NCBI GenBank assembly: GCA_903813345.2
Contig: CAIIXF020000001.1
Coordinates: forward strand, 58,421,885-58,485,884
Source of the DNA: Owenia fusiformis
Taxonomy: Eukaryota; Annelida; Polychaeta; Sabellida; Oweniidae
Direction of reading: 5' to 3'
DNA length: 64,000 nucleotides
Each line of letters starts with the position of its first letter. Within the stretch, counting starts at the first letter, position 1. Below are positions 21,601 to 52,200 of the stretch, one piece after another. Both the position numbers and the translations under genes were made by a program. The notes beneath the pieces are model-generated. The model ran no database searches. It saw nothing but the letters and a program-made list of their open reading frames with translations, and was not told where the DNA came from.

Positions 21601-24600
21601 ACTCTGAATATATTCCAAGTGGCATTCAGATAAGACAGGTTTTACTGTACCCTCCACATAGAGAATAACCTACTAATGTTTTCTTCATTAAATTACATCT
21701 TTTCACCTTTTAATGAATTCTTATGTTTAACCTTACACTTATTCGTATTTGCATTAATGGTTTCTATGACAATGAATGTGCCATATCCAGGGTGTTAATA
21801 CTTTTTTCAAATGAGTATTTTATTTCCAACAAGGAATACACATTCAACTGTAGAGAATCATTTATTTACAGCTATAAATCAAAATATTCCATTTTGTTGT
21901 ATAATAACTATTGGAAACCACTTTATACTTGATGGGTTATTATGTCCTTATGGCAAATGCCTTCTGAAGATTTATTAGATCATTTTGGAGAGAGTTTTAA
22001 AACCTTTCTGAAGAATTATGGTACCAATCTCAAGATTTATGGTATCTATCTCAATATTTATTGCACCAATCTGGAATCTTGATGAGGCCTTAAAACTATG
22101 AGACTGCTAGGTGATCTTGCACAGAAAATGTGATTGATGAACATTTTTGATGGGGTAATTTTCGAAGTCCCAAATTATTGCAACATAAAAGTATGAATGT
22201 ATCATTTGTGTTTGTATATTGGGCTCGATGTAGCTAGTTATACTGCATCTGTAGTTCTTTTATGAATAAATTAAAAGATGAAACTGGGGTTAAGCGGTTA
22301 TAACTTTATAACAGGTATAAATGTAGCTGGAGTGAAGTGGGTGATCAGACTTCAGCTGTTACTACTTATGGTTTTACTTCAGGTATAAATGTAGCTGGAG
22401 TGAAGTGGGTGATCAGACTTCAGCTGTTACTACTTATGGTTTTACTTCAGGTATAAATGTAGCTGGAGTGAAGTGGGTGATCAGACTTCAGCTGTTACTA
22501 CTTATGGTTTTACTTCAGGTATAAATGTAGCTGGAGTGAAGTGGGTGATCAGACTTCAGCTGTTACTACTTATGGTTTTACTTCAGGTATAAATGTAGCT
22601 GGAGTGAAGTGGGTGATCAGACTTCAGCTGTTACTACTTATGGTTTTACTTCAGGTATAAATGTAGCTGGAGTGAAGTGGGTGATCAGACTTCAGCTGTT
22701 ACTACTTATGGTTTTACTTCAGGTATAAATGTAGCTGGAGTGAAGTGGGTGATCAGACTTCAGCTGTTACTACTTATGGTTTTACTTCAGGTATAAATGT
22801 AGCTGGAGTGAAGTGGGTGATCAGACTTCAGCTGTTACTACTTATGGTTTTACTTCAGGTATAAATGTAGCTGGAGTGAAGTGGGTGATCAGACTTCAGC
22901 TGTTACTACTTATGGTTTTAATTCAGGTATAAATGTAGCTGGAGTGAAGTGGGTGATCAGACTTCAGCTGTTACTACTTATGGTTTTACTTCAGGTATAA
23001 ATGTAGCTGGAGTGAAGTGGGTGATCAGACTTCAGCTGTTACTACTTATGGTTTTAATTCAGGTATAAATGTAGCTGGAGTGAAGTGGGTGATCAGACTT
23101 CAGCTGTTACTACTTATGGTTTTACTTCAGGTATAAATGTAGCTGGAGTGAAGTGGGTGATCAGACTTCAGCTGTTACTACTTATGGTTTTACTTCAGGT
23201 ATAAATGTAGCTGGAGTGAAGTGGGTGATCAGACTTCAGCTGTTACTACTTATGGTTTTACTTCAGGTATAAATGTAGCTGGAGTGAAGTGGGTGATCAG
23301 ACTTCAGCTGTTACTACTTATGGTTTTACTTCAGGTATAAATGTAGCTGGAGTGAAGTGGGTGATCAGACTTCAGCTGTTACTACTTATGGTTTTACTTC
23401 AGGTATAAATGTAGCTGGAGTGAAGTGGGTGATCAGACTTCAGCTGTTATAACTTATGGTTTTACTTCAGGTATAAATGTAGCTGGAGTGAAGTGGGTGA
23501 TCAGACTTCAGCTGTTACTACTTATGGTTTTACTTCAGGTATAAATGTAGCTGGAGTGAAGTGGGTGATCAGACTTCAGCTGTTACTACTTATGGTTTTA
23601 CTTCAGGTATAAATGTAGCTGGAGTGAAGTGGGTGATCAGACTTCAGCTGTTATAACTTATGGTTTTACTTTAGGTATAAATGTAGCTGGAGTGAAGTGG
23701 GTGATCAGACTTCAGCTGTTACTACTTATGGTTTTACTTCAGGTATAAATGTAGCTGGAGTGAAGTGGGTGATCAGACTTCAGCTGTTATAACTTATGGT
23801 TTTACTTCAGGTATAAATGTAGCTGGAGTGAAGTGGGTGATCAGACTTCAGCTGTTACTACTTATGGTTTTACTTCAGGTATAAATGTAGCTGGAGTGAA
23901 GTGGGTGATCAGACTTCAGCTGTTACTACTTATGGTGCTATTTATTGCTGCAATGGACTTCCTAGTTGGATCATTTGTCCACACAGATCCAGGTAAGTAC
24001 TCTCATTGAATGGAAATCCTCAGACATAATGAACTTATGAAGTCAACTGATGAAGTCCCTGATGATGTCTCTTCCTGTTGAAGACACATTTGTTTGTTAG
24101 ATTTATTGAACGTGCAAAGGACTAACATCATTATAACATAAAATTGACTCATATTCCCTTTGATTGGCAATCAACTATGCATTGAAACTGCTGCAGATGA
24201 TACCAACTAAACAACATAACCTCAAATCTAATAGAGGGTTTGCATGCTACATTATAAGCTTTAAATTAAGTGACTCTTGTCAGGTGTCTCCATATTATGA
24301 ATAGTATTCTGGGCTGAACAAGCCCCCTACTGCCATCTATTTATTCATCCATATAGGAACTCCTGTACTTTTTCAGAACATGGTATAACAGGTTACAGGT
24401 GGTACCACTTAGTCAATAACACAGGTCCAAGCTACCTCGAGGGCCAATCATTCTTCTCAGTGTTTGGTGTGTTCTTCCCCACGGCAACTGGTGTCTTTGC
24501 TGGGATTAACATGAGTGGAGATTTACATAATCCTAGTCGAGACATTCCTGTTGGCACTTTATCAGCTGTTGGTGTCAGGTAAGAAGTACCCTTTTCAAAA

Positions 24601-34298: not shown

Positions 34299-37200
34299 TC
34301 AACTCCTAGTTGTGTACATATCCTTATCTTCATCCTTACTCTGTCCCTTGTCACCTGTGATGGGGGTAGTGGCTGAAGTTGGAGGTGGCACTATGGTGTC
34401 CTTGGCAGGGGTACCTGGTTTACTCTCACTCTGGAAGGTAGGGACAGAAATTAGGTTTGTAAATCAAAACAGTGACCCATAGCTAAAGAGACCCATTCCA
34501 TATATACCAGTTATGACAAAATGCCAAAGGTTCAAAATCTGAGTCAGTGGACAGAACCACCTCAGGTCTGTAGCCAGGATTTCTCGGTTCTCGGTCTCGG
34601 TTCTCTTTTTGTTAAATTTACATTCAGATTTAATGCACCGCGCTTAATACCTAATTCAGTAATTGACTTAATTATCATTGTATCATTTCCCTCAGATATT
34701 GAATGGATCATAAAGATATGCCTATCTAGGGGGGCCAATAATGCTATATAGCCTTGGCCCCTCACAATCTATGTAAATAATTATGTTGAATAATATGGAA
34801 ATAAATAACAATAACCCCAAAAAAAAAAATGCCTATCTTCGTGGTCAGAATAGCATTATAATTCAAGATATAACTGTCTAATATTGTTTGCAATAACCTA
34901 TATGTCTTGCAAATTCTGCTACAATATTAACTTTTAATGTCAATTAAATTATGTTTTTGTCACTAGTTTGTCAAATATTGATCATAAAAGAGTATAACGT
35001 TCCTTCATTTCTCTTTTTAATTGTTATATGTCATCCATTCATTCTGACACTAATCCTATTTTATTAAAGATTTAAATTTTAAAAATACACTTCATTATAA
35101 AATATTGATTCTAAAAGATACACTGTTGCTTCATTGTGAATTCGTAACTTTTCAGAAAAAATCTATTATTAAGATTGAATTAAATGGCCAATTACTATGT
35201 TTTAATATTCTGATGTTGAAATGATTTTGCTCCTACTAGAAATCCCGTCCTTGTGATAGTTTCGAACAGGACTAATACGTTACATAGCCCCAGTGAGCAC
35301 AGTAAATTGTTTAATCCATTCTGATACTCATCACATTCTGCCTTTGTTCAACGAGAAATATGAAGGCCATGCTTCCTCAATGATGGGGTACAATTTAAGG
35401 CATTATAGAGAGAATGTAATTTTTTCATAATAATGTGTAGACCAATGAGCGAGTGGGGAATATGACAGCGATATAATAACTGTCACTTGGAAGAAATACA
35501 TTGTTTCCAATCAGTTTCACCAATCAATGGACAAGAGGTGTGGTCTAATCAGCCTATAAATGGTTTGACAGAGTACCTTGCAATGTTCACACTCTTCATC
35601 TTCCTTCTTGTTGTCATAGAAACCTTTAGGTGCTACTTGAGATGTTGTCTGGGGCTTTAGTAACTCATCAGGTTGAACAGCTGGCTCTGAAAGTACAAGG
35701 GGACAAACATGAGTTAAGATGGATAGAATTTCATGACGGTGACAATCCAGGCCCCATATATCACGGGCAAGATCCCGCTTACAACACGAGCAATGAGCTC
35801 ATGTTAAAATATAGGTTGAAGAACGATGTTGCCCTGTAATTGAAATAGCTATTGTACTATGAAATAAAATTGTACTAAGTTTCACTTACTAAAGTTCCAT
35901 AGAAACGTTTATATTTCAATTTTATCATATCTCTCAAGGCCCCGCTTCTAACATGAGCTCATTGCTCACAATGTCAGCAGGGCCTGGATAGTGGATAGAC
36001 ACTATGCTGATTGTATGATGCCAAATCAGAGATTAAGAAATAATGATCAATGCCACCAGTAACCTTATGGGTATCCAACTACTATACAAAAAAGAACATA
36101 TGAGTTAAGATCAAATGGATCAAACAAACAATTACAGATCACTTCATTTGTGCTTTGAAAATGTCCCCATCATTTTTCCTGATCTTTTGGTCCATAAAAT
36201 ATAAAATATTAATTCCTTTTGGGATGACAAATTACAGATTATGGATGATAATCTTCGTTGATCTAAATGGTAAGATTCATACAGAGAAGTTTAGATCAAA
36301 GAAAGTCAAAAGCGATCAATTAGATTACTGCCTTTCTACTGATTTAAAACAATACAAGTTGAAAATAAAGATTGCAAATGATAATCTCATTAAAGCTTAC
36401 TCATGTAGAGATAAATTAGGATCAAAAAGAAACAGTAACAACCAATCAGATCCCTGCATTTGTATGATGAAACAGATATAAAACAGAGAATGAATGCCAC
36501 CAGAATACCACAGAAGATAATCTTCCTTGATCTTAATCCTTAAAGTTGATTATTCCCAGGGGTGATTCACATAGAGATAAGGTAGGATCAAAGAAAAACA
36601 GTAACAACCAATAAGAACACTGGATTTGTGTGATTATACTGATATAAAACATTACCTGCTGAGAGGATAGATAACAGAAGATAATCTCCATTGATCTTAA
36701 TCTTATAAGCTTATAACCCCAGGGGGTGACTCAAGTTGAGATAAGTTGGATCAAAGGAAAACAATTACAACCAATCAGATCACTGCAATTGCTAGATCCT
36801 ACTGTTAAAAAACATTACCTGCTGAGAGGTAAGATCATAGAATATAATCTCCATTGATCTTAATCCTTTAAGCTTATTAACTCTAGGGGGTGATCAGAGA
36901 GATGATTTAAGATCAAGAGGATCAAGGGAAAACAATTAACTCCAGGGGGTGATTCAGAGAGATGATTTAAGATCAAGAGGATCAAGGGAAAACAAAAGCA
37001 ACCAATCAGAATGCAGGATTTCTGCAAAGAGGTATATAAGTCAGAATTTTTCTGTAGAACATCAGACTTATGTCAATGATCTATACAGTGAATACAACAG
37101 TGAAATAAAATTTGATATATATTAAGTATGGCCTACGAATGTGATACTCCAGCAAGACATGCTATGTTTAAAACTGCTACTCCAGTCAGCAAGAAGACTA

Positions 37201-40200
37201 CAAACACATTCGGGTCACCATTCTCAATTCGTAGCCTGCTGAATCTGAGTGATGAGACATCATTTGAATCTACACCACAATCTAAAGTAGCAACCTGCAG
37301 CAGCAGCATCATGTCAAGCCTCTCCTCGCATCCTGCTGACTTAACCAGGACTCTAGCTGCTGATATAAACACTCCAGCTAAGATGTCACAGTCGCCCAAG
37401 ACTGTATCGCCTCAGCTGATCCCAGTACCAGCCTGTATCTCTGCTCTGGAGGAACACTTCTACTCACTCAAGCACCAGATGCGTGATCCTACCAAGCTGC
37501 TGGAACTAGAGGTCTACTATCGTCAACAGGTCCATCAGCTGGAATATGGGCGATATGCCCATTTGACAACCTGCTTACCCATGTATCAACATGCCATCAA
37601 CATCCAGTTCGACCATCAGCTCCGCCAGCTGGTTGATCAAGTGGAATGCAGCATGAGAATCTTGGAGACATCTACCATCACTAAGGACAGCATTCGCAAC
37701 AACCTTACCATAAGAGAGGCTGGGAATTCACTGGAAAGCTATCTGCCTCAGCCGATAATGACATCAACTCCAAAGAAGAAATCTGGGATTCTCAAGAAGA
37801 AATATCGTAACCGTGGAGTATACAGCTATCACGCTAAAGAAGTGCTCGAGACTTGGTACGCAGTCAACAGCCCCTACCCCACTACCGACATTATCCTCTC
37901 TCTCGCCACCAAGGCTGGGCTCTCCACGTCCCAGGTTCGCAAATGGTTCTGCAACAAACGACACCAGTGTGGACATGTCAACAGGAAGCTTGTTCGCCAT
38001 CTACATCAGCATAATGAACCCGTTCCCAACAGCTCTGTGCAGTCTTGGATGTAACATTACACATTCACCAGTGGACTTACAGTGAATGCAATATTAAATT
38101 GCCAAATTGTATAAAATGTGTACATATATTTGTAAATATAGTTTGTCGATTAAATAATTTGTTTTTATAAAATAAAGTATATAAAAATCAAATACTTTTT
38201 TCTGTTGTAATTTGTTTGGTTAGCCTGTTTGGTTAAGTGAAACATAAATACAAGTTCTCCATTGTACTCTAAATATTCTTTATTCATAACTCTATGCAAT
38301 ACCCTAAAAATCAATTTGAAAACCGAGAGAAAATACACAGTCAGTTGTAAAATGGTACAATTCACTTTATTTTTGAAATTGTAGTAAGTAACATGTATAA
38401 TCATCTTATTGTTGAGATTTTAGATCGCAAAATATAATCTTTCTTGATCTTTTAAGCTTATAACCGCAGGGAGTGATTCATGTAGAGATATAAGTTAGGA
38501 TCAAAGGAAAACAATTACAACCAATCAGATCACTACATTTGTTAGATCCTACTGTAAAAAAACATTACCTGCTGAGAGGGACGATCATAGAATATAATCT
38601 CCCTTGATCTTAATCCTTTAAGCTTATAACCCCAGGGGGTGATTCATTTAGAGATATAAGTTGGGATCAAAGATAACAGTAACAACCAATCAGATCACTG
38701 CATTTGTTAGATCCTACTGTTAAAAAACATTACCTGCTGAGAGGAAAGATCACAGCACACAATCTCCCTTGATCTTAATCCTTTAAGCTTATAACCCCAG
38801 GAGGTCACTCCTGTAGAGCTATGAGTTGGGATCAAAGATAACAGTAACAACCAATCAGATCACTGCATTTGTATGATCAAACAGGTATAAAACAGATATC
38901 TCAGCTGAAAATGAATACCACCAGAATACCATAGAAGATAATCTTCCTTGATCCTAATACTTTATGCTGATTATCCCCAGGGGGTGATTCACCTAGAGAT
39001 AAGGTGGGATCGAATGAAAACAGTAACAACCAATAAGAACACTGGATTTGTTTGATCATACTGATATAAAACATTACCTGATGAGAGGATAGATCATGGA
39101 AGATAAACTCCATTGATCTTAATCTTATAAGCTTATAACCTCAGGGGGTGACTCAAGTTGAGATAAGTTGGATCAAAGGAAAACAATTACAACCAATCAG
39201 ATCACTGCATTTGTCAGATCCTACTGTTAAAAAAACATTACCTGCTGAGAGGAAAGATCAGAGAGGATAATCTCCCTTGATCTTAATCCTTTAACTCCAG
39301 GGGGTGATTCAGAGAGATGATTTAAGATCAAGAGGATCAAGGGAAAACAAAAGCAACCAATCAGAATGCAGGATTTCTGCAAACAGGTATATAAGGCAGA
39401 CAATTTCTGTTGAACATCAGACTTCTGTCAATGATCTTTACAGTGAATACAACAGTGAAGTACAATTTGATACATCTGAAGCATGGCCTACAAATATGAT
39501 ACTCCAGCAAGACATGCTATGTTTAAAACTGCTACTCCAGTCAGCAAGAAGACAACAAACACATTCGAGTCACCATTCTCAATTCGTAGCCTGCTGAATC
39601 TGAGTGATGAGACATCATTTGAATCTACACCACAATCTGAAGTAGCAACCTGCAGCAGCATCATGTCAAGCCTCGCCTCGCAGGACTCTAGGACTCTAGC
39701 TGCCAATATAAACACTCCAGCCAAGATGTCACAGTCACCCAAGACTGTATCACCACAGCAGATTCCAGTACCAGCCTGTATCTCTGCTCTGGAGGAACAC
39801 TTCTACTCACTCAAGCACCAGATGCGTGATCCTACCAAGCAGCTGGAACTAGAGGTCTTCTATCGTCAACAGGCCCATCAGCTGGAATATGGGCGTTATG
39901 CCCATCTGTCAAACTGTCTACCCATGCATCAACATGCCATCAACATCCAGTTTGACCATCAGCTCCGCCTACTGGTTGATCAAGTGGAACACAGCATGAG
40001 AATCTTGAAGACATCTACTATCACTAAGGACAGCATTAGCAACAACCTTGCCACAAGAGAGGCTGGGAACTCACTGGAAAACCGTCTGCCTCAGCCGATA
40101 ATGACATCAACTCCAAAGAAGAAATCTGGGATTCTCAAGAAGAAATATTGTAACCGTGGAGTATACAGCTATCATGCTAAAGAAGTGCTCGAGACTTGGT

Positions 40201-43200
40201 ACGCAGTCAACTCTCACAGCCCCTACCCCACTACCGACATTATCCTCTCTCTCGCCACCAAGGCTGGGCTCTCCACGTCCCAGGTTCGCAAGTGGTTCTG
40301 CAACAACCGACACCAGTGTGGACATGTCAACAGGAAGCTTGTTCGCCATCTACATCAGCACAATGAACCCGTTCCCAACAGCTCTGTACAGTCTTGGATG
40401 TAACATTACACATTCACCAGTGGACTTACAGTGAATGCAATATTAAATTGCCAAATTGTATAAAATGTGTACAAATGCTTGTAAATATAGTTTTTTGTAA
40501 ATTAAATAATTTGTTTTAATAAAATAAAATATATAAAAATCAAATACTATTTTCTGTTGTAATTTGTTTGGTGGTTAGCCTGTTTGGTTAAGTGAAACAT
40601 AAATACAAGTTCTCCATTGTGATCAGGATATTCTTTATTCATAACTCTATGCAATACCCTAAAAATCAATTTGAAAACTGAGAGATAAAACACAGTCAGT
40701 TGTAAAATAGTGCAATTCACTTTATTTTTGAAATTGTAGTAAGTAACATGTATAATCATCCTATTGTTGGGATTTAAGATCGCTAAATATAATCTTTCTT
40801 GATCTGTATATTTTAAGCTTATAATCCCAGGGGGTGATTCATGTAGAGATATAAGTAAGGATGAAAGGAAAACAATTACAACCAATCAGATCACTGCATT
40901 TGTTAGATCCTACTGTTAAAAAAACATTACCTGCTGAGAGAAAAGATCACAGCATACAATCTCCCTTGATCTTAATCCTTTAAGCTTATAACCCCAGGAG
41001 GTCATTCCTGTAGAGCTATGAGTTGGGATCAAAGATAACAGTAACGACCAATCAGATCACTGCATTTGTATGATCAAACAGGTATAAAACAGATATCTCA
41101 GCTGAGAATGAATACCACCAGAATACCATAGAAGATAATCTTCCTTGATCCTAATACTTTATGCTGATAATCCCCAGGGGGTGATTCACCTAGAATGGTG
41201 GGATCAAATGAAAACAGTAACAACCAATAAGAACACTGGATTTGTTTGATCATACTGATATAAAACATTACCTGATGAGAGGATAGATCATGGAAGATGA
41301 ACTCCATTGATCTTAATCTTATAAGCTTATAACCTCAGGGGGTGACTCAAGTTGAGATAAGTTGGATCAAAGGAAAACAATTACAACCAATCAGATCACT
41401 GCATTTGTTAGATCCTACTGTTAAAAAAAACATTACCTGCTGAGAGGATAGATCAGAGAGGATAATCTCCCTTGATCTTTATCCTTTAATAGGGGGTTGT
41501 TCAGAGAGATGATTTAAGATCAAGAGGATCAAGGGAAAACAAAAGCAACCAATCAGAATGCAGGATTTCTGCAAACAGGTATATAAGACAGACAATTTCT
41601 GTGGAACATCAGACTTATGTCAATGATCTTTACAGTGAATACAACAGTGAAGTACAATTTGATACATCTGAAGCATGGCCTTCAAATATGATACTCCAGC
41701 AAGACATGCTATGTTTAAAACTGCAACTCCAGTCACTAAGAAGACTTCAAGCACATTTGAGTCACCATTCTCAATCCGCAGCCTCTTGAATCTGAGAGAG
41801 GAGACATCACTTGAATCTACACAACCGGCTAAACTCGCACCCAGCAGCATCATGTCAAGTCTGACTCTAGCTGCCAATATAAACACTCCAGCCAAGATGT
41901 CACAGTCGCCCAAGACTGTATCGCCTCAGCTGATCCCAGTACCAGCCTGTATCTCTGCTCTGGAGGAACACTTCTACTCACTCAAGCACCAGATGCGTGA
42001 TCCTACCAAGCTGCTGGAACTAGAGGTCTTCTATCGTCAACAGGCCCATCAGCTGGAATATGGGCGATATGCCCATCTATCATCCTGTCTACCCATGCAT
42101 CAACATGCCATCAACATCCAGTTTGGCCATCAGCTCCGCCTACTGGTTGATCAAGTGGAACACAGCATAAGAATCTTGGAGACATCTACCATCACTAAGG
42201 ACAGCATTTGCAACAACCTTGCCATAAGAGAGACTGGAAATTCACTGAAAAACCGTCTGCCTCAGCCAATAATGACATCAACTCCAAAGAAGAAATCTGG
42301 GATTCTCAAGAAGAAATATCGTAACCGTGGAGTATACAGCTATCACGCTAAAGAAGTGCTCGAGACTTGGTACGCAGTCAACTCTCACAGCCCCTACCCC
42401 ACTACAGACATTATCGTCTCTCTCGCCACCAAGGCTGAGCTCTCCACGTCCCAAGTTCGCAAGTGGTTCTGCAACAAACGACACCAGTGTGGACATGTCA
42501 ACAGGAAGCTTGTTCGCCATCTACATCAGCATAATGAACCCGTTCCCAACAGCTCTGTGCAGTCTTGGATGTAACATTACAAATTCATCAATGGACATTC
42601 AATGTTTACATTATTAAATTGTTCAAAATGTGTAAATATACTTGTAAATATAGTTTTTTGTAAGTTAAATAATTTGTTTTTATAAAATAAAATATATAAA
42701 AATCAAATACTATTTTCTGTTGTAATCTATGTGTTTCGCCCTGTTTAGTCATGTGAAACAAAAATACAACATTCCCCATTTGTGGAACTTAAGACAACCT
42801 ATAAATATAATCTTCCTTGATATTTTCTCCAAGGTGTGACTCATGTAGAGAGATGAGTTGGGATGAAAGAACAGTATCAACAAACAAGAATGCTGCATTT
42901 CTGAGATCAAACAATAAATACTGTAGAACATTTTCCACTGGGATAACTGTATATAACCCAAGACAATCAGATCACTACATTTCTAAGATCCTCTAAACAT
43001 ATGTGCTTGGAATCAAAGACAAACAGCAACAACCAATTAGATCACTGTATTTCTAAAATCCTACTAATATATAACACTAGCTGTTGAGAGGAAAGATCAT
43101 GGAAGATATTCTACCCTTGATATTAATCCTTTAAGCTGATTATCCCCTGGGGATGATTCATGTAGCGATAATTTGGATCAAAGGAAAACAGCCAATCAGA

Positions 43201-46200
43201 TCACTGCATTTGTTAAATCCAACAGATCAAAATCAAACATTACCTACACATTTCATAGATGCTTATCTCCTTTAAGCTGATTATCCCCAGGGGGTGACCC
43301 ATGTAGAGATATAAGTTGGGATCAAAGATAACAGTAACAACCAATCAGATCACTACATTTGTTAGATCCTACTGATAAAAAACATTACCTGCTGAGAGGA
43401 AAGATCATAGAATATAATCTCCCTTGATCTTAATCCTTTGAGCTTATTACCCCAGGGAGTGATTCATGAAGAGATATAAGTTGGGATCAAAGATAACAGT
43501 AACAACCAATCAACAGCTTTTCTTAGAATTCAATAAAAGTAAAACATTACCCTGTAACATTAAAGATCACAAGATATCCCCTGAACTTCATCTTTCCCCA
43601 AGGGGTAACTTGTGTAGAAGTGCCAACAGGGATATACCAAAATGGGGTAAAAAACAGAGCAAGAAAATGAAGCATTTACTACTATTATACTTACATCTAC
43701 TATTATCTAACAAGTAAAGAAGCAAGGTCTAATACCCCTCTCCACTACCATTTAAGAACCTTATCAAAATCCAAGACCACAAGCTATATTTTTGATAATG
43801 ATTTTGACCAGTTAATAAAAGAACCAACAAGAATCACACCAACATCTGCTACTTGCATTGATCTCACAGTCACTAATGTCCCAGGTCTTATAAATTCTTC
43901 TACTGTAATTGAACCTATAGGCTCATCAGACCATTGTTCAATTTTTACTCAACTCGATGTACTATTAAATAGAGAGGAAGATCAATTTAAACTTATTTGG
44001 AAATATGATACTGCAAATAAAGATGCCTTGAACCTTGAAATTGAAAAAATAAATCTGGGATTCTCAAGAAGAAATATTGTAACCGTGGAGTATACAGCTA
44101 TCATGCTAAAGAAGTGCTCGAGACTTGGTACGCAGTCAACTCTCACAGCCCCTACCCCACTACCGACATTATCCTCTCTCTCGCCACCAAGGCTGGGCTC
44201 TCCACGTCCCAGGTTCGCAAGTGGTTCTGCAACAACCGACACCAGTGTGGACATGTCAACAGGAAGCTTGTTCGCCATCTACATCAGCATAATGAACCCG
44301 TTCCCAACAGCTCTGTGCAGTCTTGGATGTAACATTACACATTCACCGGTGGACTTTCAGTGAATGCAATTAAATTGCCAAATTGTATAAAAATGTGTAC
44401 ATATATTTGTAAATATAGTTTGTCGATTAAATAATTTGTTTTTACAAAATAAAGTATAACTAGATTTGTAAATTGAACAAAGTTCAATTTAAGACTCCAG
44501 ATTGATTTACTTGAGTAGGTAGCTGAGTAAGTAACTGAGTAGCAAGCTGAGTAAGTAGATGATTAAGTAATTGAGTGAGTAGCTGAGTAGGTAGCTGAGT
44601 AGGTAGCTGAGAAGGAAGCTGAGTAAGCAGCTGAGTAGGTAGCTGAGTAGGTAGCCGAGAAGTAGGTAGCTAAGTAGGTAGCCGAGTAGGTATGTAGGTA
44701 GGTAGGTAAGTAGGAATTTTTGACCGAAAGTCGGATTGAAATTTGGTTTGCAGATTCAGATTCCTGGGAAAATTCTACCCTTATTTCATAACTCATACAT
44801 TAAATTTGGAGATTTTTTATTTTGACCCACTTTTAGGACGCCATATCTCAAAAATGGGTCAAAATACTTTCTGACGGCAAAAGGCTATCACTATTAACAC
44901 ACTCTTTTCTACCTGTATACAAAATTTTGAAGCAAATCCTAAAAGTGTAGTGCCAGAATCGTAAAAATAAGGAAAAACTAGGAATTTGACCTAGATTTTG
45001 ACCTAGGCATTTTGGTGTCCAAATATTGAAACTAGGTAGCTTTTGAGGTCCCCTTCTTTTATAGGAATTCATTATCTTAAGCTGTACTCAGTCTATATCT
45101 CGTATTTTACACTTCGAAAAAATCTTTTTTCCTTGACTTTCTATCAGAATAACATCAGATCGATTTTCTGAAATTTCAAAACGCCATAACTTCCGAACCG
45201 GAAGTCGGATAGAAATTTGATTTAAAGATTAGGATTCCTGACAAAATTCTACCCCTAATCCATAACTCATACGTTAAATTTGGCGAATTTTTATTTTGAC
45301 CTACTTTTTGGACACGCCATAACTTTGGAACCGGAAGTCGGATCGAAATTTGGTTTGCAGATTCGGATTCCTGATAAAATTCTACCCCTAATTCATAACT
45401 CATACGTTAAATTTGAAGAATTATTTATTTTGACCTACTTTTGGGACACCATATCTCAAAAGTGGGTCAAAATACTTCCTGACGGCAAAAGGCTAACACT
45501 ATTAGCACACTCTTGGCTACATGTATACACAATTTCGAAGAATATAATTAAAGTGTAGTGTCAGAATCGCAAAAATAAGGAAAAACTATGAATTTTAACT
45601 AGATTTTGACCTAGGCATTTTTGTGTCCAAATTTTTAAGCTAGGTGGCTTTTGAGGTCCCCTTCTTTAAAAAGCTTCCATTATATTTAGCTGAACTCAGT
45701 CTATATTTCGTATTTTTCACTTCAAAAAAATCTTTTTTCCCATTGACTTAACATGGGCACCAAGTTTAGCGATTTTTGAGCTTTCAAAACGCAATAACTT
45801 CCGTACTAGATGTCGGATCGAAATTTAGTTTGCAGATTCAGGTTCCTGAGATCATTCTACGCTTATTTCATAGCTCATATGTTGAATTTGGAGAACTTTT
45901 TGTTCTGACCTACTTTACGGACGCCATATCTCAAAATCGGTACGAGTAATTAAAAATCTGATGGCATATCTTTGAAAGAGCTGTTTCTATGCTACATGAT
46001 GAAAAAAAGACAAAGTTGTTTCAATAAATAACGATGAAGATAATTGAAAGAATGTTGAAAATGCAAGATTTGACCTAGTTCTTGACCTTTGACCTAGATA
46101 AAAATTTGACCTAATTTCCCATCATCCCAGATGCATTCCCTAGTTTATCATGTAAGCAGCTTAAAGTAAGCTCTTCTAGTTGGTGAGAAATCTTGTAAGG

Positions 46201-49200
46201 AGGAAGATTCTGAAAGAAAAATAATAATAATAAGAAAACTGGCAAAAGCAATAGACTCCAGATTTTCATCTGGAGTCTAATAAAGTATAAAAATCAATCA
46301 CTATTTTCTGTTGTAATTTATGTGGTTCGCCCTGTTTAGTCATGTGAAACAAAAATATAAGTTTCCCATTGGTGGACCTATAAATATCATCTTCCTTGAT
46401 CTCTATCTTATAAGCTTATTTTCCCCAGGGTGTGACTCATGTAGAGATATAAGTGATGAAAGGGATAAAAGAACAGTATCAACAAACAAGAATGCTGCAC
46501 TTCTTAAGATCAAACAATAAATAGAACATTTTCCACTGGGATAATTGAATATAACCTCCCCTTCAATCAGATCACTGCAATTCTAAGATCCTCAAAACCT
46601 ATGTTCTTGGAATCAAAGACAAACAGCAACAACCAATAACCTAGAAGCGAGTAGAAATACTCTTGAGTTACGTCATTAAAAATTCACAATTCAAAATTGA
46701 TGTCATATTTGGAATCTACATGTAAAATTACACCTAGAAATGTGGTTTTGAAAAGAGTTTATCAACTTTGAAAAATTAATTTTCTTTGAAAATGTGACTT
46801 CTTGGTCGGGGAGATTCCCCATAGACCCCATGCTGTAAAACCACAAAAAGTGAAACTGGTAACTACCTACTCGCATCTGAGTAATATCCCAGATGCGAGT
46901 AGAAATAATCTTGATTTATGTCATTAAAAATTCACAATTCAGTCAAACTGATGTCATATTTGGAATCTACATGTAAAATTACATCTAGAAATGTGGTTTT
47001 GAAAAGAGTTTATCAACTTTGAAAATTTAATTTTCTTTGAAAATGTGACTTCTAGGTCGGGGAGATTCCCCATAGAGCCCATGTTGTAAAACCACAAAAA
47101 GTGAAATATCTTTTCTTGTGTTGGGCAGATAATATTTTCTTTTACTGGACATATTTTAATTTGTATAATTATCAGATACATAAAGGTAATATGAAAAGTG
47201 AACCATTAAAACTGATGCATATTCAAGTTTAAGGGAATTTTGTAATACCCTGCCATGTTAATTCCCCCGAATCAGCCACCTGGTGGCGAAACTGGTAACT
47301 ACCTACTCGCATCTGAGTAATTAGACTCAATTATTACTGGACATATTTATAAGTTTCCCATTGGTGGACCTATAAATATCATCTTCCTTGATCTCTATCT
47401 TATAAGCTTATTTTCCCCAGGGTGTGACTCATGTAGAGATATAAGTGATGAAAGGGATAAAAGAACAGTATCAACAAACAAGAATGCTGCACTTCTTAAG
47501 ATCAAACAATAAATAGAACATTTTCCACTGGGATAATTGAATATAACCTCCCCTTCAATCAGATCACTGCAATTCTAAGATCCTCAAAACCTATGTTCTT
47601 GGAATCAAAGACAAACAGCAACAACCAATAACCTAGAAGCGAGTAGAAATACTCTTGAGTTACGTCATTAAAAATTCACAATTCAAAATTGATGTCATAT
47701 TTGGAATCTACATGTAAAATTACACCTAGAAATGTGGTTTTGAAAAGAGTTTATCAACTTTGAAAAATTAATTTTCTTTGAAAATGTGACTTCTTGGTCG
47801 GGGAGATTCCCCATAGACCCCATGCTGTAAAACCACAAAAAGTGAAACTGGTAACTACCTTCTCGCATCTGAGTAATATCCCAGATGCGAGTAGAAATAA
47901 TCTTGATTTATGTCATTAAAAATTCACAATTCAGTCAAACTGATGTCATATTTCGAATCTACATGTAAAATTACATCTAGAAATGTGGTTTTGAAAAGAG
48001 TTTATCAACTTTGAAAATTTAATTTTCTTTGAAAATGTGACTTCTAGGTCGGGGAGATTCCCCATAGAGCCCATGTTGTAAAACCACAAAAAGTGAAATA
48101 TCTTTTCTTGTGTTGGGCAGATAATATTTTCTTTTACTGGACATATTTTAATTTGTATAATTATCAGATACATAAAGGTAATATGAAAAGTGAACCATTA
48201 AAACTGATGCATATTCAAGTTTAAGGGAATTTTGTAATACCCTGCCATGTTAATTCCCCCGAATCAGCCACCTGGTGGCGAAACTGGTAACTACCTACTC
48301 GCATCTGAGTAATTAGATCACTGTATTTCTAAAATCCTACTAATATATAACACTAGCTGTTGAGAGGAAAGATCATGGAAAGAACATTACATACACATAT
48401 CATAGATGCTTATCTCCCGTTGATCTTAATCCTTTAAGCTGATTATCCCCAGGGGGTGACCCATGTAGAGATATAAGTCGGGATCAAAGATAATCGACCA
48501 ATCAGATCACTGCATTTGTTAGATCCTACTGTTAAAAAACATTACCTGCTGAGAGGAAAGATCATAGAATATAATCTCCATTGATCTTAATCCTTTAAGC
48601 TTATAACCCCAGGGAATGATTCATGGTGGATATTGAAAAACAATATCCACCAATCAAATCAAAGCTTTTGTTCAATCCAACTGGTATTCAAATTTACCCG
48701 TGAGAGGAAATTTTACAATAGAAAATCTTAAAATAAAATAAAACACACCTCGTGAGACTATTTACTGTATAGTGAAACAAAATGCATATTTTAAAAATAT
48801 ATGCTTTCACTTATGAGTGAAATCTCTCTATTACCAGGGTAAGACACTGAAAATATTCGCTCAAGACATTTATCGTTGACTGCACACATTAGAACAATTT
48901 TAATTGAATGCAACATCCACATGCAAATAAATCTACACCAGGATGAAGATGTGGCCGATGGGATCTTGTTTATAAAGCATTGAATATGGGTGAAGAAAAG
49001 TGGGAGGGAAACCATGTAGACTATGAAAAATAATTTGTCAGTAAGCTCAAGCATGATTACCACATAAATACATAATAAAACATAAGATTATAATTTCATT
49101 TCCCAATTTTATTACACAAATATATGAGAAGGTTATGCACAATTTCACAATTATATATACAATTATATTTACATTAATTTATACATTTGGCAGATTCATT

Positions 49201-52200
49201 AAGAGTTCATTTCAACTGAAAACAATACTAAATCCAAGATTGCACAGAGCTGCTTGGCACAAGTTCATTTTGATGATGTAGATGATTAAGCAACTTCCTG
49301 CTGACACGTCCACCTCGGAGTCGTTTATTGGAGAACCACTTGCGAACCTGGGATGTGGTGAGATCAGCCTGGTTAGCGAGAGAGATGATAATGTCAGTGC
49401 TTGGGTAGGGATTGTGAGAGTTGACAGCGTACCAAGTCTCCAACACAGCTGTAGACTGTTGGCGATACACTGCATGGCGATGAGATTTCCTAGGATTCCC
49501 AGATTGCTTCTTAGGAGTTGAAGTCATTATTGGCTGTGGAGGAAACTCTTCGAGAGAGTTCCTAGACTCAAATGCAGCGAGGTTGTAGCTGATGTTGTCT
49601 TGGGTGATGAGAGATGTCTCCAGGAGTCTGATGCTGCGTTTTACTCGACCAATCAGAAGGCGGAGTTGATGGTCACACTGGATGTTGATGGTGTGTTGAT
49701 GCATTGGTAGACAGTTGGAGAGATGTGTGTAACGCTCAGACTCCACCTGGCGGGTCTGATGATGGTAGAAGGACTCTAATTCCAGTAGCTTGGTAGGATC
49801 AGATAACTGGCACTTGAGTGAGTAGATGCGCTCCTCCAGGGCAGAGATACAGGCTGGCACTGGGATCAGCTGAGGCGATACTGTCTGGATCAGCTGTGAA
49901 GGCATTTCTCGAGTGTTGATATCTGCAGCGAGAGCTTTGCTTAGCTCATTGAAGCTAGGATGTGAGGCCAGGCTTGACATAATACTCCTTGGAGGTACTT
50001 CAGTTGGTTGTGTAGATTGTGATGAAGTCTCTTCCCTCAGATTCAGCAGGGTACGAATTGAGAATGGTGACTCAAATGTGTGTGTAGTCTTCTTAGTGAC
50101 TGGAGTCTTGGTATCCACACTGCAGGCTGTTTCAAACAGAGCACGTCTTGCTGGAGTATCATATTTGTTAGCCATGCTTAAGAATTTTTAGTATTTATCG
50201 AGATGTAGTCACTGTATAGAGCATTGACATAAGTCTGATGTTCTACAAAAATATTCTGTCTTATATACCACTGCGCAGTAATCCTGCAGTCTGATTGGTT
50301 GCTTTTGTTTTCCCTTGATCTTCTTGATCTTAACTCATCCCTGCATGAGTCACCCCCTGGAGTTAATCAGCTTAAAGGATTAAGATCAATGGAGATTATA
50401 TTCTATGATCGTCCCTCTCAGCAGGTAATGTTTTTTAACAGTAGGATCAAGCAAATGCAGTGATCTGATTGGTTGTAATTGTTTTCCTTTGATCCAACTT
50501 ATCTCAACTTGAGTCACCACCTGGGGTTATAAGCTTATAAGATTAAGATCAAGGATGATTATCTTCTGTGATCTATCCTCTCGGCAGGTATTGTTTTATA
50601 TCAGTATAATCACACAAATCCAGTGTTCTTATTGGTTGTTACCGTTTTCCTTTGATCCAACTTATCTCAAATTGAGTCACCCCCTGGGATTATAAGCTTA
50701 TAAGATTAGGATCAAAGGAGATTATTTTTGTGATCTCTCCTCTCAGCAGGTAGTGTTTTATATATGTGGGTTTTGAGAAATGCAGTGATCTGATTGGTTT
50801 TTATGATTTAAACTTAATTCTACATCTGGATCACCCACTGGGGTAAATCGACTTTAAAGATTAAAATCAAGGAGAGATCGGGTTCTGCGATCTATCCTCT
50901 CAAGTCTCAGTATATGCTTTCGATCTGATGAAGCTTACAAATGCTGTGATCTGATTGGAAGATTTTCAACTTTAACCTCAACTTATCTTTACACGAGTCA
51001 TCCCCTCGATCTGATCTAACATGTTTTTATTTGACCCAATCATCAAAACCAGTTTACAATTGAAGATTTCAGACTTATATTTCATCATTTTATACTTAGT
51101 ACGGCATGTTTCTCAAGAATAAAATCGGTTATAATGAAAACACGCGCTACGCGCTAACGCGCCACGCGCCAATGCGCTAATAGAAAATGATCCTTCCCCC
51201 ACGATGTGTGCGCATGTTTTAAGCACATGTTTATGATTGGTCTATACCCTTGGCCCAGGGACATGTATAATTAGGGTTATGACTCCCTGGGAACTTGTCA
51301 AAACATTGACACTTCAAAGACTGTATAAATCACCGCTAACCTGTCAATCAGACTTTGATGTGAACTTTGCGGCCGCAGGAAATAAACAAAGCCTCTCGAA
51401 AATTACACTTTTCAAGTTACGATTTCTCTAAAAATATAAGACCAATTAAGATGTTCTTCACACCGTTAAAAAACAGAATTCAACTTCAATTTAGGAAATA
51501 ATTCCAAAACTAAATGAACGTGTACTTTTCTCTGTATTTGACCTGAAAGAACATGAGTAACTTAGAATTAATAAATATTTACGGCCAATTACCGGACAAT
51601 GATAAAACACGCTGGTGGGTTAAATCGTCTCTTATTTAAAACTTTAATTCCAAATGAAATACAATCCTGTTTTCAACAATATTCCTGGTAAAATAGGTAA
51701 TACAATTCACTGGGACTGACGTAATTCAAAACTTTTTACTTTTTAAATCTAAAATCAAATTGAGAAAAACGAAAGCAAACATGAAAGGGGGGTTCATAGG
51801 GGTCTTGGAAATCCATATACACTATTTTTCACAAGCCCTTCAGTCTTATACCATTTACAGCATTTTTCACCCCTTTTACATGTATAACATACAGCGTATG
51901 CAATATTTTTCACATCTCCCTATATAGACGGTGAACCAACACGATCCTCAGAGAACCAGAGGGTGCATGAATGCACCTACTCCCTATAGTACTATATTTT
52001 ACAAAAAGGTCGGGTAAATAATATATCTGTACGATAATTTTGAAATTACCGTTGAGAAAAGTTTGGATAATATTCAGAAGGAATTAACATAATTATTTGC
52101 ATTTGCAAGAATCCACGTAGTACCAAATGTAATCATACGGCAAATAGGCAGTACACAGCCCCGAAGCCAGGGGGGTTCGGAGGGTGACTTTGGAATTTTT

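Follow-up and report, generated by a model that had tools for sequence, protein, structure and literature searches.

Ladders of repeated modules before a family of TALE homeobox genes

We analysed a stretch of 64,000 nt from the annelid Owenia fusiformis (contig CAIIXF020000001.1, positions 58,421,885 to 58,485,884; hereafter the window, numbered from its first letter), which contains a cluster of TALE homeobox genes preceded by ladders of ∼165-bp modules with a CCAAT box. The four intact genes, A1–A4, have uninterrupted frames of 299–315 amino acids (aa), and the Pfam models Homeodomain and Homeobox_KN scored above cut-off in all three of the window-cluster proteins scanned. A protein search of the genome detected relatives of these genes at four further places. 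We refer to the window cluster as group A and to the other places as groups B, C, D and E (Table 1). The frame of gene C6 starts at a later ATG than those of its paralogues. Two weak additional matches of the protein search lie on contigs C11 and C3.

Typical homeodomains have 32 residues from Leu16 to Trp48. Counted in the same way, 16 of the 17 proteins have 35 residues, that is, the three extra residues between helix 1 and helix 2 that define the TALE class, and A1 has 33, two of its three loop residues being lost despite the open frame. Among the 38 matches listed in a Homeobox_KN search, the 17 genes are the only large TALE expansion seen. Both group D proteins (L005 645–1652, L006 618–1625) carry Arg at the position usually occupied by Asn51, in the customary numbering a normally invariant homeodomain residue, and their reading of DNA may therefore be altered.

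The first-pass annotation of the window had described CCAAT boxes recurring every 160–180 bp before each gene, and this is what we find. The 1.1-kb regions upstream of the four genes hold 15 CCAAT pairs at that distance. In 300 dinucleotide shuffles the mean was 0.18 and the largest number 3, and the remaining window (44 kb, both strands) has two such pairs. The CCAAT gaps of the window ladders are 161–179 bp, except for one of 231 bp before A1, which houses a 60-bp duplication (36876–36995). All seven CCAAT/TATAAAA pairs named in the annotation are present at their bases, 35 bp apart, and an eighth lies at 50797/50762; these 35-bp units are not independent of each other, being mostly two module types that the genes have in common by position. 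Other modules in the same ladders carry TTAAAAAA at the TATA position. Also as described before, the distance from CCAAT to TATATAAG in the gene-proximal unit is 31 bp in all four genes (positions in Table 1).

A module profile was built from A and B modules, with seeds cut around CCAAT. It spans the ladders of the A and B genes almost end to end, genes B2 and B3 having one full and one part module each and no more, and it also detects diverged modules in group C. Conservation between groups A, B and C is highest in AACCAATCAG and the letters that follow it (GATTGCAGCATTT in B and C); conserved TTGATC and AAAACA stretches lie next to this block. We counted 55 ladder modules of groups A, B and C that cover the CCAAT box, including those of the orphan ladders (ladders with no homeobox match behind them) and of a broken gene copy. 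CCAAT was present in 50 and CCAATCA in 44 of them, numbers favoured by the way the seeds were cut. At least one TTGATC was present in 51, and 33 contained the exact GATCAAAG.

Table 1. Genes, ladders and proximal promoters of the window (group A), and location of the related gene groups
Feature	Location	Strand	Description
A1 ladder	36274..36847	+	modules 36274-36378 (decayed), 36359-36518, 36521-36684, 36685-36847; profile scores 26, 81, 146, 158 bits; CCAAT 36442, 36608, 36771
A1 proximal promoter	36848..37127	+	partial module, CCAAT 37002, TATATAAG 37033, TCAGACTT 37062, 5' leader
TALE homeobox gene A1	37128..38054	+	308 aa, single open frame
A2 ladder	38442..39270	+	five full modules, 38442-38597, 38598-38761, 38763-38922, 38942-39105, 39108-39270; profile scores 126-162 bits
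A2 proximal promoter	39271..39482	+	CCAAT 39357, TATATAAG 39388, TCAGACTT 39417
TALE homeobox gene A2	39483..40403	+	306 aa, single open frame
A3 ladder	40793..41465	+	four full modules, 40793-40958, 40960-41120, 41139-41299, 41302-41465; profile scores 127-157 bits
A3 proximal promoter	41466..41674	+	CCAAT 41549, TATATAAG 41580, TCAGACTT 41609
TALE homeobox gene A3	41675..42574	+	299 aa, single open frame
Ladder of the broken gene copy	42809..43575	+	five modules or part-modules
Broken fifth TALE gene, 3' part	44045..44356	+	homeodomain end, tblastn
Solitary decayed modules	46390-46592, 47382-47584	+	two, without CCAAT, 992 bp apart
Orphan ladder	48311..48711	+	no homeobox match behind; faces A4 3' end
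TALE homeobox gene A4	49228..50175	-	315 aa, single open frame
A4 proximal promoter	50176..50395	-	CCAAT 50298, TATATAAG 50267, TCAGACTT 50238
A4 ladder	50396..51028	-	modules 50396-50557, 50559-50721, 50725-50875, 50880-51028; profile scores 158, 149, 103, 87 bits, dropping with distance
Group B	contig C4, 25.5 Mb		3 genes, ∼68% identity
Group C	contig C5, 39.47 Mb		6 long frames and one shorter, ∼50% identity
Group D	contig C1, 50.7 Mb		2 genes, ∼38% identity
Group E	contig C8, 11.18 Mb		2 genes, ∼32% identity

One predicted core promoter per gene

Each of the 15 genes of groups A–D has a start element, TCAGACTT, 49–123 bp upstream of its ATG; the E genes have no TCAGACTT. In the 2-kb stretch of gene C5 there is a second copy, which lies 1.5 kb up at the short gene next to it. 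In all 14 genes with both TATA and the start element, the A of TCAG follows TATA at 31 or 32 bp. CCAAT and TATA are 31 bp apart in A, B1, B3 and E1, 40 bp in C, 42 bp in D and 22 bp in E2. Thirteen proximal units were found (that of gene C4 was missed), with CCAAT in all of them and TATA in 12. Searches for these and the following patterns covered the 498-Mb genome. The arrangement CCAATCA–TATAWA–CAGACTT had 17 matches (control: 2), 15 of which are at the TALE family, namely at 14 of the 17 genes and at the short C gene. The other two (G000:C4:3192963 and 3208489) lie 15.5 kb apart and are identical over the matched 78 bp. In gene B2 (L001 8697–8812) the start element is kept and TATA is absent, and CCAAT and ATG lie 9 bp closer together than in B1 and B3.

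The first-pass annotation took the modules for something like copies of each gene's own promoter and listed tandem alternative starts as one possible role. Under that explanation every module can start transcription, giving up to six starts per gene. It would account for the TATA found 25–50 bp after CCAAT in nine of the 26 ladder modules of the window cluster, and for the proximal promoter itself being a partial module. However, these nine are the only such cases among the 55 modules, with none in the 29 of B and C, and TATA was therefore rejected as a ladder feature outside the window cluster. Moreover, TCAGACTT, which in 14 of 14 genes follows TATA at 31–32 bp, was found in none of the 55 modules, also when one of three positions was left free and up to 60 bp beyond the module were included. 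Copies each carrying TATA and a start element, as expected of tandem promoters, are thus not what the ladders contain. The repetition is real, but units that have no start element are not promoter copies; they are regulatory units upstream of the promoter, and we regard a set of alternative promoters as improbable.

Genomic distribution and history of the modules

A satellite or transposon lying here by chance would leave copies irrespective of genes, and the earlier annotation had named modules spread genome-wide without homeobox genes as the sign of such an origin. We looked for this spread and found full modules in TALE clusters only. All 38 matches of a 165-bp module query were in clusters A and B, and a cluster C module query had 30 matches, 28 in C and 2 in B. 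The full ∼165-bp module was thus detected in clusters A and B, with diverged copies in C, by a search that scores the best candidates only and could miss stray modules. A search pattern that covers the initial part of the module gave 27 matches with at most 2 mismatches, 25 of them in A and B. One of the two outside, on contig C58, showed on reading no module, ladder or homeobox match; the other is C5:31333728. At 3 mismatches, 27 more matches appeared, three in cluster A, a number near that of the control (17 in all). The combination of GATCAAAG followed by ACCAATCA within 5–18 bp had 30 matches, 20 of which were in A, B and D, compared with 4 for the reversed control.

What would fit a mobile origin is the 22-bp CCAAT core. 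Allowing at most 3 mismatches it had 1,049 matches per strand (the equal numbers are unexplained) versus 6 and 4 in the control, which amounts to roughly a thousand sites across the genome, several of them within dispersed repeats. Twenty of the outside loci (L009–L028) were read, and nine have common flanks by eye, resembling a dispersed repeat. In these 20 there were 0–3 TTGATC in the kb before the core and no ladder, and none had a TATA 31–42 bp after the core (one had it at 21). The core is common elsewhere, yet full modules are seen only in TALE clusters, so the ladder is not common. Based on the genome searches and the reading of these 20 loci a satellite or transposon origin was rejected, and we find it scarcely credible.

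This extended 22-bp CCAAT core (AACCAATCAGATTGCAGCATTT and variants) is more than 100 times commoner than its reversed control. It sits in dispersed repeats, some listed as pairs 5.6–6 kb apart, and it may act as a strong NF-Y site that transposons have spread.

In a tree of the A and B modules several units cluster by position and not by gene (unit −3 of A2/A3, −2 of A1–A4, −1 of A2/A3). Those ladder parts are therefore older than the gene copies, in a tree in which 10 of 19 inner branches lack resolution. Groups A, B and C have the module in common, with A and C proteins ∼50% identical. We examined 15 gene pairs for divergence of the gene-nearest module versus synonymous divergence (dS). For A1–A4 the module value was 0.045 and dS 0.535, a 12-fold difference; for A1–B1 the values were 0.181 and 0.583, and for A2–C1, on different chromosomes, 0.425 and 1.364. 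In B1–B3 they were equal (0.125 and 0.123), and in C1–C2 and C1–C3 the module was the more diverged (0.142 and 0.134 versus 0.080). Perhaps module copies were not matched in these B and C pairs, or coding parts have been homogenised. The farther a module lies from its gene, the lower its score (rho −0.47, p 0.002, n = 40 non-independent points from ten genes, leaving out C3–C5, D and E).

These data bear on the idea that the ladders are a neutral by-product, in which unequal crossing-over multiplied upstream DNA and the repeats have no function. Tandem duplication is evident in the 60-bp repeat of A1, in two B1 modules that pair together as a within-gene duplication, in the orphan ladders and in the broken gene, and the three pairs with module divergence at or above dS would be expected under neutrality. 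Against it stand several modules that keep their position across genes, modules less diverged than synonymous sites when A genes are compared with B genes or with C genes on a different chromosome, the decay with distance, and the repetition of the same site in other units in groups D and E (see below). We therefore consider functionless repeats unlikely, if somewhat less so than alternative promoters.

The two orphan ladders, at window 48311–48711 and at G000:C4:25514434–25514955, belong to unlinked clusters, and both are directed at the 3′ end of a gene that runs the other way. They are either what is left of lost genes or a 3′ enhancer.

A shared TTGATC site and the candidate function of the ladders

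When the 1-kb upstream regions of the five groups were compared with no motif assumed, TTGATC was the 6-mer most enriched in common, 7- to 12.6-fold over 44 kb of the window. Seventeen 8-mers occurred in all five groups, and the first among them was CTTTGATC, the textbook TCF/LEF site, with densities of 3.0, 2.3, 2.2, 5.5 and 1.5 per kb in the five groups and one occurrence in the 44 kb of background. It accounts for 17–44% of the TTGATC occurrences of the five groups and for ∼2% of those in the background. When each of the 17 genes was compared with 200 dinucleotide shuffles, 14 surpassed all shuffles in TTGATC and 10 did so in CTTTGATC. One site is thus repeated well above background, as in a homotypic cluster.

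The units that carry the site differ between groups. Upstream of D2 it is a unit of 120–121 bp with CTTTGATC followed by TTAATCCC or TTGATCCC, alongside a separate CCAAT unit that recurs at ∼100 bp (CCAAT gaps of 96, 104 and 284 bp), and D1 has two copies of the 120-bp unit. E2 and E1 have 21–22-bp arrays rich in TGATC. The CCAAT gaps of group B are 130–176 bp, most gaps in A and B together being 130–179 bp, and a spacing of ∼166 bp recurs in genes C1, C2 and C6. As D and E use units of ∼120 and 21–22 bp, a strict 165-bp spacing was rejected as a conserved feature. The constant element is the site, not the period.

This also bears on phased nucleosome arrays, another role proposed by the first-pass annotation, in which the ∼165-bp period positions nucleosomes. 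Most of the group A gaps (161–179 bp) and the ∼166-bp spacing in group C would suit it. The wider range in group B, the irregular CCAAT gaps of D2 and the shorter units of D and E do not, and a constant repeat length near the nucleosome repeat was not seen across the groups. Nucleosome-size spacing is therefore not the rule, and a constant site with a changing period argues against phasing, which we hold very improbable, and for more than one multiplication of the same binding site.

The enhancer multimers that the annotation had listed among its possible roles are favoured instead, with modules that hold factor sites and not the start. Its observation is thus confirmed and its interpretation partly supported. 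The ladder architecture is real and gene-specific, and the repeated unit is better described as a probable enhancer than as a promoter. We estimate a probability of about two in three that the ladders are tandem, gene-specific arrays of TCF-type and NF-Y-type enhancer units for early zygotic TALE expression. Most likely, a homotypic array of putative TCF and NF-Y sites drives a strong zygotic burst of each gene.

Several observations weigh against this assignment. CTTTGATC did not exceed every shuffle in 7 of the 17 genes, nor TTGATC in 3. Many sites in A and B are CTTGATC, which is not the textbook TCF form, and with C before TTGATC another reader of this site is therefore possible. TGASTCA and AGATAA (A–C) and TAATCC (A, B, D and E) are above background as well. 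The E genes have TTGATC arrays without a CCAAT ladder, the exact GATCAAAG is in none of the 13 proximal units, and the CCAAT count of the modules is favoured by the seeds, as mentioned. The B1 pair and the B and C divergences given above also belong here, and the low divergence within A could be due to gene conversion.

The main competitor for the site is autoregulation, in which TALE proteins themselves bind TTGATC and the ladders hold the family in feedback or cross-regulation. TALE homeodomains often read TGA-containing sites. In all five groups TTGATC clusters go with the TALE genes, and seven forkhead genes have TTGATC close to the background level (see below). But no enrichment was seen for the classical TALE sites (TGACAG, TGATTGAT), the shared site extends best to CTTTGATC, the TCF form, and group D has Arg where Asn51 is usual. 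We rate autoregulation as unlikely, although it is the least improbable of the alternatives considered here.

Concerning timing, PMC12550047 states that in O. fusiformis more than ten unclassified TALE homeobox genes and many, not all, foxQ2 genes rise at 3 h post fertilisation, at zygotic genome activation. As the 17 genes are the only large TALE expansion seen among the listed Homeobox_KN matches, most of these reported early genes are probably among them, and we infer early embryonic timing for these exact genes. For contrast we used seven forkhead genes in two tandem groups (contigs C8 and C10). Their assignment to foxQ2 follows the chromosomes given in PMC9539403, which places the tandem Fox gene groups of O. 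fusiformis on chromosomes 5 and 7, and assumes that contig numbers follow the chromosome numbers sorted as text. None of the seven, one of them represented by only 441 bp upstream of an uncertain start codon, had CTTTGATC upstream or a ladder. TTGATC occurred 0–3 times in each, and the looser CTTTGAWS once and twice, in two of the seven. An architecture common to genes of that stage is thus unsupported by these genes, and the ladder looks not to be general to genes active then.

If the preferred enhancer reading is right, the ladder would be a tandemly multiplied enhancer directly before one core promoter per gene. Each ∼165-bp unit would offer TCF/LEF-type sites (CTTTGATC or GATCAAAG, and further TTGATC) together with an NF-Y-type CCAAT box (AACCAATCAG), and the core promoter (CCAAT, TATA and TCAGACTT 31–32 bp on) would start a TALE transcript with an intronless reading frame. 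Maternal NF-Y may open or load the array, and a maternally controlled reader of TTGATC, for which beta-catenin/TCF is the best candidate, would set which blastomeres fire. The benefit of many copies would be a strong and sharp response within the short early cleavage. Both proteins are candidates chosen for their match to the sites.

Homotypic clusters of TCF/LEF sites are known in early Wnt target genes. The ladders resemble these in having several sites of the CTTTGATC type immediately before presumed early zygotic regulators, and differ in the tandem modules, the CCAAT box (A–C), the many paralogues and the differing periods, with TCF binding here predicted from the site match. In general promoters NF-Y/CCAAT sites are single or paired and are not known to form ladders. 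CCAAT boxes near early-active genes of embryos are described in PMC11802806, and the ladder genes, probably early-active too, have such boxes as well. Spacer promoters of ribosomal DNA (rDNA) serve RNA polymerase I, while the ladder genes are protein-coding. The rDNA core promoter is duplicated in the intergenic spacer (PMC1215480), so that there too a gene stands behind several copies of a promoter-related unit. Those repeats include the core promoter, unlike the ladder repeats, which are without start element and mostly without TATA.

It is to our knowledge an open question how maternal polarity leads to tier-specific TALE expression in spiral cleavage. SPILE, the spiralian TALE homeobox expansion, is described in PMC8524836 and PMC6118893, according to which zygotic transcripts of the molluscan A/C and B clades start at the 4- to 16-cell stage. 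A conserved region of ∼90 aa upstream of the homeodomain (PADRE) is attributed to most clades in PMC8524836. Our 17 genes are likewise expanded spiralian TALE genes, and their alignment has a conserved stretch of roughly ∼90 aa N-terminal of the homeodomain, which is like PADRE by size and position only. In contrast to our focus, the word "promoter" is absent from the main text of both SPILE papers, and in the titles and abstract openings of the open-access papers searched we found no description of repeated promoter or enhancer modules before these genes.

The ladders may be a candidate explanation for how these genes switch on at the embryo's first use of its genome. More tentatively, and with considerable doubt, they could be the direct input from maternal polarity (a beta-catenin/TCF gradient plus NF-Y) to the spiralian TALE code, with copy number and site quality setting the blastomere tier of each paralogue. 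As receiving elements they would make the polarity question testable by small reporters, one per paralogue. The same short site does occur in different repeat units of unlinked paralogues, which clearly documents that array-type regulation evolved more than once in one family, and arrays of 165, 120 and 21 bp in separate paralogue groups would, if the reading is true, reflect repeated selection for such control.

Two further repeats were seen in the window. At 46390–48098 both solitary decayed modules are followed by a 251-bp repeat, each in about two copies. At 22312–23936 lies a 68-bp repeat of 24 copies, 98% alike and with strong GC skew, which contains 24 copies of TCAGACTT.

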